The position numbers and the translations under genes were made by a program. The notes under the pieces were generated by a model. The model was not told the DNA's origin. It searched no databases and saw nothing but the letters and a program-made list of their open reading frames with translations. From Prevotellaceae bacterium (GTDB lineage: Bacteria > Bacteroidota > Bacteroidia > Bacteroidales > Bacteroidaceae), in NCBI GenBank assembly GCA_031262785.1, contig JAISHB010000127.1, positions 1 to 64,000 on the forward strand: 64,000 nucleotides of DNA. Reading direction: 5' to 3'. Below are positions 12,229 through 62,728 of the stretch, piece by piece. Every line of letters begins with the position of its first letter. Within the stretch, counting starts at the first letter, position 1.

Positions 12229-12244
12229 CGGCGCGGTCGGCGCC

Positions 12245-12490
12245 GTTGGTACCCGTTAACAATTGACGTGGGCGCACGCCGCGCCGTTCATACCGATTAA
12301 CAAGTGAGGTGGACGCACGCTGCGCCGTTCATACCGATTAACAGTTGACGTTTGCGCACGCCGCGCCGTTAGCACCGGTTAACAAAGTGTGCTTTGCGCA
12401 CGCCGCGCCGGGGCTACGCATTAACAAGTAACGTTTGCGCACGCCGCGCCGATGGTTTTTCGCCCCGCGTATCCTTGGCGCACGCAGTAC
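12245..12490. repeat. Array A: 41-bp tandem repeat, 5 clear units plus a degenerate sixth
   Basis: Units start at 12245, 12286, 12327, 12368, 12410, 12451; e.g. GTTCATACCGATTAACAGTTGACGTTTGCGCACGCCGCGCC. Confidence 0.9.
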
Positions 12491-31767: not shown

Positions 31768-32170
31768 GATTCCCCGTCGTGGGAAAGGCTCGGTGGGTGC
31801 AAGAACAAGGTTATTTTTGTGAGGGAAAGACAGTTTGTGCATACAAACAAGCTTGCCTTCGTTGCGGAAAATCTGCTTTTGCATAAAAAGAGCCTTTCCC
31901 ACAGGTGGGAAACCTTGTTTTCGGAGAAAAAGTGGCTTCCCCAATTTGTTAAAACGTAGATCTGTCCGAAGGACAAGCTTTCCCAATTTAGGGAACCGTA
32001 TACACATCCAAAAAGTAGCTTTCCCAATTTAGGGAACCGTATACATATCCAAAAGGTAGCTTTCCCATTTTAGGGAATCGTATACATATCCAAAAAAGTA
32101 ACTTTCCCAACTTTGGGAGAGTTACTTTTTGTGGGAAAACAAGGTTTCCCACACGCATACCCCACCCCCA
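31768..32170. repeat. Array C: degenerate 41-43 bp tandem repeat, about 9 units, last partial
   Basis: Units start near 31768, 31810, 31851, 31892, 31935, 31977, 32018, 32059, 32101; best copies GCTTTCCCAATTTAGGGAACCGTATACATATCCAAAAGGTA; TTTCCC...GGGAAA dyad in most. Confidence 0.85.
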
Positions 32171-50343: not shown

Positions 50344-50627
50344 AAGCCGGCGGGAGAAACGGCCTCTTCCCGAACGAAACCGTTTTTCCCGCCGGAAAAG
50401 TCATATCCTTCCGAATAATAGTGTTTTTCCCGCCGGAAAAACGGTTTTATTCCGAATAATAGCGCTACTTCCGCGGGAAAAGTCATATTATTCCGAATAA
50501 AAGGGTTACTCCCGCCGGAAAAGTTGTATAATTTCAGACAAAAGTTATATTCCAACGCGACTTGTCAAACAATTCCAAAAAAAAGGGCGGTTCCTGCCGG
50601 AAAATTAGTTTATTTTGGAATTTTTTT
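50341..50627. repeat. Array D: 41-bp tandem repeat, 7 in-phase units (outer and fifth units degenerate)
   Basis: GGAAAA-type element in phase at 50353 (degenerate), 50394, 50435, 50476, 50517 and 50599 (2x41 further); core TTTTTCCCGCCGGAAAAGTCATATTATTCCGAATAATAG. Confidence 0.9.
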
Positions 50628-58413: not shown

Positions 58414-60990
58414 CTACTGGATACGTAGCGAAAGTGTTTGTCCCTCTGCCGCCGAGCTTCCGCCCACCAGCAGCGTGTAATTTCCCGGGGTGAGGGTGAC
58501 GCTGTTGGTGGCTTCGTTCCACCACTCCAGCTCCTTCTCCCCCAACGGGAAGAGCACGTTCACACTCTCTCCTGCCGGCACGGAAACGCGACGGAAGGCG
58601 CGGAGGGTTTTGACAGGTCCCCCGGCATCGCCTTCTTTGCGCAAGTAGAGTTGCACCACCTCGTCGCCCTCGCGCAGGCTGTTATTGGTCAGGGGAACGG
58701 TCAACGTAAGCTGTCCTCCGGCGCTGAACCGATCGGCGCTTAGCGTAGGAGTGCCGTAGACGAAGTTGCTGTAACTCAATCCGTGCCCGAAAGCAAAGAG
58801 AGGCGTCTGGGCGAGATACCGGTAGGTGCGTCCCTTCATGTCGTAGTTTTCAAAGTCGGGCAGTTGGCTCACGTTGCGGTAGAAGGTAACGGGCAGGCGA
58901 CCGGCCGGATTGTATTTGCCCAGCAAGACATCGGCCACGGCCGTGCCGCCGGCTTGTCCGGGATACCAGGCTTGCACAATGGCCTCGCACCGCTCACTTT
59001 CGGGAACCAGTCCGATGGGCGAACCCGAGCAATTAACCAGCACGATGCGTTTACCGGCGCGATGCAGCGCCGCAATGAGTTCGCGCTGCACGGCAGGCAG
59101 CTCGATATCGGTGCGATCGCCCCGTTTGAAGCCGGGTAGGTCGACGCCCATCTCTTCACCCTCGAGGCTGGGCGAGATACCGCCGACAAAGACTACCACG
59201 TCGGCCTCTTTGACGCGCTCTACCGAACGGCGGATGTCCACCTTTTCTTTAAAGCCGAGATCGAAGGCAAGCTGGGCGTCACTGCGCAAATACTCATATT
59301 CCAACTCCACTTCGTAGGCCTCTCCGGCCTTGGCTTTGAGGGTGTAGCTCGATTTGCGGGCGCCGTGTCCGTTGCGGAAGCTTTTCACCTCTTGGCCGTC
59401 GATACGCAGGCGGCCGCTACCGTAGGTATAGAGTTCGAAGACCACCTCGCCCGAACGGTTGGGCGTAAACGTGCTGTGATAGGTTGCCGAGAAATTGGTG
59501 AGGTTGACCCCCGGGGCAAACACCGTGGCACCCGACGTGCAGAACTGGAAGGGGGTGGCAATCTGTGCCACGGCCACCGGTTCACCCTCGCGCTTGGTGT
59601 TGTTCCAGTAACGGGCACTAAAGCCGGCTCCTTGCGGGGTTTTACACTGCGAAAAAGCACTCCGGATGAGCGAACGCTCCACCCACGGACATCCCTGCTC
59701 GTAAATCACCTTGTCGGCGCCCAATGCCGCTTGGATACCCTGCAAAATGGTGACGGTATGCGGGGGCATGCCGTTGTAATTGCCCCATTGCATCACCGAA
59801 TCGTTGGCATTGGGTCCCATCACGGCCACGCGAAGGCCTTCCGGCTTAAGCGGGAGCAATTCGTTGCGATTTTGCAGCAGCACGATGGAACGACGCGCCA
59901 TATCGAGCGCCAGCGAATCGTGCGGGGCCGAACCCACCACCGAAAAAGGTATTTTCGACCACGAAACCTCGTCCAGCTTATCCATCTCGCCCAGTGCAAA
60001 GCGCGCTTTGAGCAATCGCTTGACCGAACGGTCTATTTCCGCTTCGGGAATCAGCCCTTTTTGCACGCTTTCGACCAGTGCCTTGTAGCTGGAGCCACAA
60101 TCCAGGTCGGTGCCGCTGTGTACGGCGGCGGCCGAGGCGGAGGCGGCATCGGCGTGGGTGTGATGCCCGTGGTCGTTATAGAAATCGGCTATGGCGCCGC
60201 AGTCGGCCACCACAATGCCGTCGAATCCCCATTCCTCGCGCAAAATATGGGTGAGCAACCGGTTGCTTCCGCAGCAAGGATCGCCCTCGAAGCGGTTGTA
60301 GGCGCACATCACCTCCTGCACGCGGGCTTCCTTGACCAACGCCTCGAAAGCCGGCAGGTAGGTTTCATACAGGTCGCGCGCAGGGATATTCTCGGCGTTA
60401 TATTCGTGTCGGTTCCATTCGGGGCCGCTGTGCACGGCAAAATGTTTGGCGCAGGCGTGTAATTTGTCATAGTCGCCTTCCGGCCCTTGCAATCCTTTGA
60501 CCACTTCCACTCCCATACGCGCTGTCAGGAAGGGGTCTTCGCCATAGGTCTCGATGCCTCTTCCCCAACGCGGATCGCGGTAGATATTGATGGTGGGCGT
60601 CCAAAAGGTAAGACCCTGATAGCGCTGACGCTCCCCCTTGGAAGCATAGAACGTGTGCTTGGCGCGAGCTTCGTCGGAGACGGCCTCAAAAACACGACGC
60701 ACGGCGGTGGTATCGAAAGAGGCAGCCATGCCGATGGGTTGGGGGAAGACGGTGGCCAAACCCGCACGCGCCACGCCGTGGAGGGCTTCATTCCACCAAT
60801 TATAAGACTGAATACCCAAACGCTCCACCTCAGACGAAACATCTTGCATCAATTGCACCTTTTCTTCCAAGGTGAGCTGTTTGATCAGGTCATCGGCACG
60901 TTCTTCGGGCGAGAGACGGTTGTTTTTGTAGGAGGTGTTGCAAGCTGTCAGCAGCAGCAACCCCACGAGGGAGAGTTGTTTTACTTTCAT
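58414..60990 (-). CDS. Glycoside hydrolase family 3 with inserted PA14-like domain
   Basis: INIYRDPRWGRGIETYGEDPFL, GFDGIVVADCGAI, FGHGLSYSNF; PA14-like insert FSARYWNNTKREGEP... Confidence 0.93.
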   Translation of the reverse strand: MKVKQLSLVGLLLLTACNTSYKNNRLSPEERADDLIKQLTLEEKVQLMQDVSSEVERLGIQSYNWWNEALHGVARAGLATVFPQPIGMAASFDTTAVRRVFEAVSDEARAKHTFYASKGERQRYQGLTFWTPTINIYRDPRWGRGIETYGEDPFLTARMGVEVVKGLQGPEGDYDKLHACAKHFAVHSGPEWNRHEYNAENIPARDLYETYLPAFEALVKEARVQEVMCAYNRFEGDPCCGSNRLLTHILREEWGFDGIVVADCGAIADFYNDHGHHTHADAASASAAAVHSGTDLDCGSSYKALVESVQKGLIPEAEIDRSVKRLLKARFALGEMDKLDEVSWSKIPFSVVGSAPHDSLALDMARRSIVLLQNRNELLPLKPEGLRVAVMGPNANDSVMQWGNYNGMPPHTVTILQGIQAALGADKVIYEQGCPWVERSLIRSAFSQCKTPQGAGFSARYWNNTKREGEPVAVAQIATPFQFCTSGATVFAPGVNLTNFSATYHSTFTPNRSGEVVFELYTYGSGRLRIDGQEVKSFRNGHGARKSSYTLKAKAGEAYEVELEYEYLRSDAQLAFDLGFKEKVDIRRSVERVKEADVVVFVGGISPSLEGEEMGVDLPGFKRGDRTDIELPAVQRELIAALHRAGKRIVLVNCSGSPIGLVPESERCEAIVQAWYPGQAGGTAVADVLLGKYNPAGRLPVTFYRNVSQLPDFENYDMKGRTYRYLAQTPLFAFGHGLSYSNFVYGTPTLSADRFSAGGQLTLTVPLTNNSLREGDEVVQLYLRKEGDAGGPVKTLRAFRRVSVPAGESVNVLFPLGEKELEWWNEATNSVTLTPGNYTLLVGGSSAAEGQTLSLRIQ

Positions 60991-61066
60991 GGTTTTAAAT
61001 GATTGTTAGTGGATGATTGCAATAATTGGGGCAAAGATACACCGATTCTTTTAACCATAAAATTTC

Positions 61067-61312
61067 TTTGTTAAAGGATTGCCTGTCTCCTTTAACAAAA
61101 TACGCTCTTTGTTAAGGGAGACAGGGGAACCTTTAACAATAAACCTTCTTTGTTAAAGGAGACAGGGGAACCTTTAACAATAAGCCTTCTTTGTTAAAGG
61201 AGACAGGGGAACCTTTAACAATAAGCCTTATTTGTTAAAGGAGACAGGGGAACCTTTGACAGTAAACCTTCTTTGTTAAAGGAGTCGGGGGAACCCTTAA
61301 CAATCCGCCCTT
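61067..61312. repeat. Array E: exact 41-bp tandem repeat, 6 units, first unit inverted
   Basis: Units start at 61067, 61108, 61149, 61190, 61231, 61272; TTTGTTAAAGGAGACAGGGGAACCTTTAACAATAAGCCTTC; inverted arms TTGTTAAAGG/CCTTTAACAA. Confidence 0.97.
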
Positions 61313-61354
61313 TTCCTTACCTTTGTGGCAGTTCAATCTTAAAAAAGCAAGCTT

Positions 61355-62728
61355 ATGTTTTCAAAAGCGACTTATCTGGAGCGCAGAGCCACGCTCAAAC
61401 AAAGAATCGGCTCGGGCGTATTGCTCTTTCTGGGCAACGACGACATGGGGCTTAACTACGAAGACAATGCCTTCCGTTACCGTCAGGATTCCTCGTTTCT
61501 CTACTATTTCGGACTCTCGCAGGCCGGATTGGCCGCCGTCATCGATGTAGACGAAGATCGTGAAATCATTTTTGGCGACGAACTCACCATCCACAGCATT
61601 ATCTGGATGGGTACGCTGCCTACGCTTCGCAACCGCAGCTTTGAGGCCGGAATTACCGACGTACGCCCCGCCAAAGAGCTGGCCGACTATCTTACGGGCG
61701 TGGTTCGTCGCGGTCAGTCGATACACTACCTTCCGCCCTATCGTCCCGAGCATCACATCAAGCTGTGGCGCTATCTGGGGCTTCCACCCGATCACCAGGA
61801 AGGTTCCATCCCCTTCATCCGCGCCATCGTCAGCCAACGCAACTATAAGAGCGAAGAAGAGGTTGCCGAAATCGAACGCGCCTGCAATGTAACGGCCGAT
61901 ATGCACATTCGCGCCATGGAAGTGCTTCGTCCGGGCATGTATGAGTATGAGGTGGTGGCCGCCATGAATTATGTGGCCGAGTCGAACAATTGTCAGCTCT
62001 CATTTCCCACCATTGCCACCATCAACGGGCAAACGCTGCATAATCACTACCACGGCAACCGGGTAAAGTCGGGCGACCTCTTCCTCATTGACGCGGGCGC
62101 CGAAGTGGAATCGGGTTATGCCGGCGACATGTCTTCGACCTTCCCCGCCGACAAACAATTCACCGACCGGCAGCGTGCCGTCTACGAAATTCAGAATGCC
62201 ATGCACCTGGAATCGGTTAAGGCCTTGCGTCCGGGCATCCCCTACATGCAAGTGTATGATTTATCGGCGAAAGTGATGGTGGAAGGCCTCCAAACACTCG
62301 GTTTGATGAAAGGCGACGCCGAAGAGGCCGTGCATGAAGGTGCCCACGCCCTTTTTTACCCGCACGGCCTGGGACACATGATGGGATTGGACGTACACGA
62401 CATGGAAAACCTCGGCGAGCAGTGGGTGGGCTACAACGGCCAACCCAAAAGCACGCAATTCGGACGCCGTTCGCAACGCTTGGCCGTTCCGCTCGAGCCG
62501 GGCTTTGTCCACACCGTGGAGCCGGGTATCTACTTCATCCCCGAACTCATCGACCTGTGGAAAGCCGAAAAACGTCACGCCTCGTTTATCAATTATGAAA
62601 AGGTGGAAGCCTACCGCGGCTTCGGCGGCATCCGCAACGAAGAAGATTACCTGATCACCCCCACCGGTGCCCGTCGCTTAGGAAAAAAGATACCGCTGAC
62701 GCCCCAAGAGGTAGAGGCACTGCGCTAA
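61355..62728 (+). CDS. pepP: Aminopeptidase P family protein (Xaa-Pro aminopeptidase)
   Basis: LFLIDAGAEVESGYAGDMSSTFP, GLGHMMGLDVHDMENLG, HTVEPGIYFIP. Confidence 0.95.
   Translation: MFSKATYLERRATLKQRIGSGVLLFLGNDDMGLNYEDNAFRYRQDSSFLYYFGLSQAGLAAVIDVDEDREIIFGDELTIHSIIWMGTLPTLRNRSFEAGITDVRPAKELADYLTGVVRRGQSIHYLPPYRPEHHIKLWRYLGLPPDHQEGSIPFIRAIVSQRNYKSEEEVAEIERACNVTADMHIRAMEVLRPGMYEYEVVAAMNYVAESNNCQLSFPTIATINGQTLHNHYHGNRVKSGDLFLIDAGAEVESGYAGDMSSTFPADKQFTDRQRAVYEIQNAMHLESVKALRPGIPYMQVYDLSAKVMVEGLQTLGLMKGDAEEAVHEGAHALFYPHGLGHMMGLDVHDMENLGEQWVGYNGQPKSTQFGRRSQRLAVPLEPGFVHTVEPGIYFIPELIDLWKAEKRHASFINYEKVEAYRGFGGIRNEEDYLITPTGARRLGKKIPLTPQEVEALR

Follow-up and report, generated by a model that had tools for sequence, protein, structure and literature searches.

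Array E and its flanking genes

Within the window, meaning the whole stretch of 64,000 nucleotides of Prevotellaceae DNA that was analysed, a tandem array, termed array E, occupies a divergent promoter gap between a GH3 gene and pepP, both of them ordinary genes for Bacteroides. The two Bacteroides-type −7 boxes that an earlier note on this DNA had claimed, one for each gene, are present by eye. The features of the locus are as follows.

58414–60990, minus strand: GH3 gene (bglX-like, with PA14 and Fn3-like domains), one flank of array E
61032–61039, minus strand: Bacteroides-type −7 box TATCTTTG of the GH3 gene, a motif match only, by eye
61068–61108, plus strand: unit 1, a 31-bp palindrome and a 10-bp linker, with an inverted spacer, TTGTTAAAGG-ATTGCCTGTCT-CCTTTAACAA
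61083–61125, no strand assigned: foldback over the linker between units 1 and 2, from the 16/17 complementarity of the half-units and the fold
61109–61149, plus strand: unit 2, with a single arm substitution (AAGGG)
61150–61190, plus strand: unit 3, consensus
61191–61231, plus strand: unit 4, consensus
61232–61272, plus strand: unit 5, with two substitutions in the right arm
61273–61313, plus strand: unit 6, with three substitutions and a diverged linker
61318–61325, plus strand: Bacteroides-type −7 box TACCTTTG of pepP, a motif match only, by eye
61355–62728, plus strand: pepP, encoding aminopeptidase P (peptidase M24), the other flank of array E

The six units stand in exact 41-bp register (61068–61313; period 41 with 90% matches in TRF), and each is an imperfect 10-11-10 palindrome in which TTGTTAAAGG, 11 bases and CCTTTAACAA are followed by a 10-base linker, with the arms recurring equidistantly every 20.5 bp. 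The earlier description of six exact 41-bp units holds for the spacing but not for the sequences: over 31 bases, units 3 and 4 agree with each other and with the consensus quoted there, whereas units 2, 5 and 6 differ at one, two and three bases, respectively. Array E gave no Rfam match and no terminator-like site, and 61000–61400 holds no inverted repeats beyond the units and their immediate edge. Its only relative, on C29 (L004, 9733 onward), is partial, with a match over 96 bp; in it, an arm change on one side of the linker is matched on the other, CTTTCACA with TGTGAAAG. The nearest relatives of PepP, from B. clarus and B. cutis, show 81% protein identity, which places the genome in or near Bacteroides. 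No match to array E DNA was found among 159 other genomes of the genus, and the array is private to its species among the genomes compared.

The reversed spacer of unit 1

The spacer reads ATTGCCTGTCT in unit 1 and AGACAGGGGAA in the other units, and the former matches the latter at 8/11 positions when inverted compared with 2/11 when read directly; for one comparison, the chance of at least 8/11 matches is about 0.0012. Over 31 bases, unit 1 agrees with units 3 and 4 at 28/31 positions as the reverse complement and at 22/31 directly. The value of 28/31 given in the earlier note is arithmetically right, but it is overstated because the 20 palindromic arm bases match both ways and carry no orientation information, the informative part being the 8/11 spacer bases. 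The linkers of array E do not settle the orientation (direct 4–6/10, inverted 4–5/10), and the dependence of the flip on 8/11 bases in a single unit counts against the explanation of the array favoured below.

The single-strand folding of array E is far beyond chance (z = −7.3 for DNA and −6.5 for RNA), and in the minimum-energy fold the whole of unit 1 is paired with the whole of unit 2 as one long foldback. The half-units that face each other across the linker are complementary: CCTGTCTCCTTTAACAA, which forms the right half of unit 1, agrees at 16/17 positions with the left half of unit 2 when the latter is reverse-complemented. No weight can be given to the suggestion that the arm substitutions are wobble-compatible, as any transition in a perfect stem produces G–U on one strand; the suggestion is further undercut by unit 6, which produces A–C on the plus strand. 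Palindromes are enriched but not universal among the array families of this genome (14/54 at p < 0.05 compared with about three expected), and hairpins therefore leave part of the array class unexplained.

Reversed units are not confined to array E. A scan found reverse-oriented segments in 12/55 arrays of period 41 or 42, mostly at array ends, with some of these calls being ambiguous because palindromic units match in both directions. There are three sets of clear cases. The arrays at L138 and L154 are non-palindromic within the scanned stretch; the 42-bp array at L136 (1390–1740) changes orientation after five forward units and continues with three reversed ones, the register being kept; and in three related arrays (L137, L140 and L019), the final half-unit mirrors the first half. 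The matched arm change in the C29 copy is a comparable event.

Unit lengths across the genome

The census of arrays covered sampled stretches totalling 920 kb of the 2.34 Mb assembly (39% of this one genome; 135 contigs, 76% complete). The periods of the non-coding arrays in this sample are 21–25 or 41–43, with a single array at 82. When the 78 non-coding arrays were grouped by similarity, 55 sequence families were obtained, a count that hinges on the similarity cut-off, with modal periods of 21 (two families), 22 (eight), 23 (five), 25 (one), 41 (17), 42 (18), 43 (three) and 82 (one), so that 38 of the 55 have a modal period of 41–43. It is therefore the unit length that the arrays have in common, and not the sequence. 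The low edge of the peak at 22 is partly a detection limit because TRF scoring requires about two copies of at least 20 bp; the near-absence of periods 26–40 is not such a limit. That unrelated arrays have two unit lengths in common is not accounted for by slippage alone. Phased A-tracts at 10.5 bp are weak (fourth harmonic, z of 1.4–1.7), and a lattice of equidistant arms at 20.5 bp was rejected as a general rule, the arm spacings varying among the other arrays.

Three further period-41 arrays with unrelated sequences lie in the window (12240–12451, 31976–32118 and 50387–50544); a copy related to the first lies at L170 (2240–2460), and 31599–31665, shortly ahead of the second, matches BTncRNA_FopS (Rfam RF04319), a family of paralogous sRNAs of Bacteroidetes. 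A dispersed palindromic repeat of about 115 bp (CCCCCAAACCCCCTAAAGGGGGCTTAG...) abuts several arrays (L016 358–473, L140 736–850, L162 20–116 and L017 2354–2465).

Genomic context and a possible role in gene control

The period-41/42 arrays of the 920-kb sample are all intergenic. With gene calls made approximately by a simple codon-usage script, 23, 13 and 10 of them lie between co-directional, divergent and convergent genes, respectively, compared with 90, 40 and 24 for all gaps of 150 bp or more, and they favour neither divergent promoters nor gene ends. The contexts are proportional to the numbers of gaps, which speaks against arrays of this class acting as promoters or terminators, and a promoter-only or terminator-only function was rejected on this unbiased context together with the lack of a terminator-like site. 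The proposal that array E acts on both flanking promoters is not supported, since arrays of this kind occur proportionally in all gap types; promoter control by array E is likewise unsupported, and caution is warranted in that single arrays found in every type of intergenic gap should not be read as promoter elements.

A more specific form of control would be exerted if the units were repeated operator sites, with a dimeric DNA-binding protein recognizing TTGTTAA-N17-TTAACAA and controlling the divergent gene pair. The position of array E in a divergent promoter gap suits such sites, and when TTGTTAA-N(14–20)-TTAACAA was sought here, all ten matches, at five loci with different centres, had exactly 17 bases between the arms, compared with one match for the reversed-pattern control. 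This constant spacing may simply reflect the common descent of the units; operator sites are kept as a rival because either common descent or a protein site could explain it. However, the motif is missing from most arrays of the same period, many same-period arrays lie between convergent or co-directional genes, and in other genomes the motif gives 0–4 matches with variable spacing. On balance, operator sites are an unlikely explanation of array E.

Comparison with known systems

Tandem repeats of 41, 23 and 22 nt have been described in Porphyromonas gingivalis, some of them within MITEs, and the MITEs BrickBuilt (23 nt) and MITE464/PgRS (41 nt) enclose tandem direct repeats (PMC4596501). The P. 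gingivalis repeats are like array E in that they come from the same order, are intergenic, have near-equal unit lengths, form stem-loops and have sequences restricted to the species or its nearest relatives (PMC4596501). Like those of BrickBuilt and MITE464, the repeats of array E are direct, in tandem and intergenic, with a period of 41, but whereas these elements have a leader and a tail with IS5-like terminal inverted repeats, none were found for array E in 61000–61400. It is therefore not filed as a tandem-repeat MITE, and is filed as a further case of the known intergenic Bacteroidales minisatellite. P. gingivalis has been described with few repeat families, whereas the genome analysed here has at least 55. 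As far as the open-licence papers searched show, unit lengths common to many unrelated families have not been described as a general pattern, the only work found on repeats of such lengths being that on P. gingivalis.

The P. gingivalis precedent and the dispersal of several array families here over 2–6 loci would both suit an origin of array E as a MITE-type element. This origin is nevertheless distinctly improbable: terminal inverted repeats are lacking outside the units, the sole relative, on C29, matches over only 96 bp, and the dispersed copies that were checked share either part of a promoter or a gene duplicate and not transposon ends. L138 (1–680) and L154 (4480–5150) have in common a 42-bp array together with the start of an apparently duplicated gene, and the array therefore appears to have travelled with the gene duplication.

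REP/BIME elements, which are mobilised by Y1 (RAYT) transposases, are short extragenic palindromes with tandem and inverted copies (PMC3733652), and in these respects resemble the arrays described here; they differ in that no sequence is common to the present array families. A REP/RAYT origin was rejected, as this genome, at about 76% completeness, gave no match to Y1_Tnp (PF01797), while control genomes were positive.

Origin of array E

Array E is probably a species-private intergenic palindromic minisatellite that grew by slippage, carries a template-switched spacer and belongs to a genome-wide class defined by unit length. Irrespective of sequence, the units of this class would span about two (22–23 bp) or about four (41–42 bp) helical turns, and the copies in array E would have arisen by tandem duplication, through slippage or unequal exchange. 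Every unit and every unit–linker–unit junction would be able to fold back, and a polymerase would therefore sometimes switch template within the array. A single switch that left the 41-bp register intact could have made a reverse copy of either the unit 1 spacer or, with unit 2 as the template, the right half of that first unit. A true inversion of the spacer and the copying of the left half of unit 2 into unit 1 both fit, and both would be products of template switching. We infer that the array has no specific effect on its neighbouring genes.

Unit 1 appears to owe its reversal to an accident of replication and not to a genetic switch. Phase variation by a site-specific recombinase that flips the spacers is hardly credible: although one unit is inverted in register and Bacteroides makes wide use of invertible promoters, a spacer of 11 bp enclosed by its own arms is not long enough to form the loop that a recombinase needs, the half-unit mirror copies elsewhere point to copying events and not inversions, and the arms differ from one array family to the next. 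Programmed inversion of the spacers is unsupported, and of the two routes first proposed for the flip, recombination is physically unlikely for an 11-bp stretch flanked by its own arms. The other, hairpin template switching, holds up, as inverted or mirror-copied units like this one are present in further arrays of the genome and the process has been documented (PMC8604942). A polymerase that switches template between two short inverted repeats is known to invert spacers and to homogenise arms, and such an event is recognized by a spacer that is reverse-complemented between intact inverted arms of more than 9 bp (PMC8604942). Unit 1 shows this arrangement, with intact 10-bp arms around a spacer that matches better inverted than direct, and mirror-copied half-units are found elsewhere in the genome; the difference is that the event here lies within a tandem array, in which the next unit over the linker may be the template. 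On its own, array E is a modest but well-preserved case of mutation driven by hairpins within a minisatellite.

Unit lengths in other genomes

The fixed unit lengths over unrelated sequences are the most interesting point of this analysis, above array E itself. In small samples of other genomes, period 22 was the commonest in 1.37 Mb of Bacteroides relatives (47 rows, with a few at 44 and 42 and unrelated array sequences), and the peak was again at 22 (17 rows) in a second sample of 20 genomes, while 200 kb of E. coli K-12 contained three arrays (24, 96 and 303 bp) and none at 22 or 41–44. We tentatively raise the possibility that Bacteroides, and perhaps Bacteroidales generally, has a molecular ruler by which tandem arrays between genes are made or retained only if their units measure about two or four helical turns (22–23 or 41–42 bp), independently of sequence, candidates being a DNA-wrapping or filament-forming protein or a fixed-step repair enzyme, with array E as one product. 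If the unit lengths are truly common to unrelated arrays genus-wide, something besides sequence sets the length of a new tandem repeat, and it can be searched for directly.

Arrays of 21–23 or 44 bp with other sequences also lie upstream of pepP in other Bacteroides (L055 5790–5852, L063 5682–5768, L096 2748–2828 and L026 1304–1451), and the 24-bp arrays upstream of pepP in relatives look coding.
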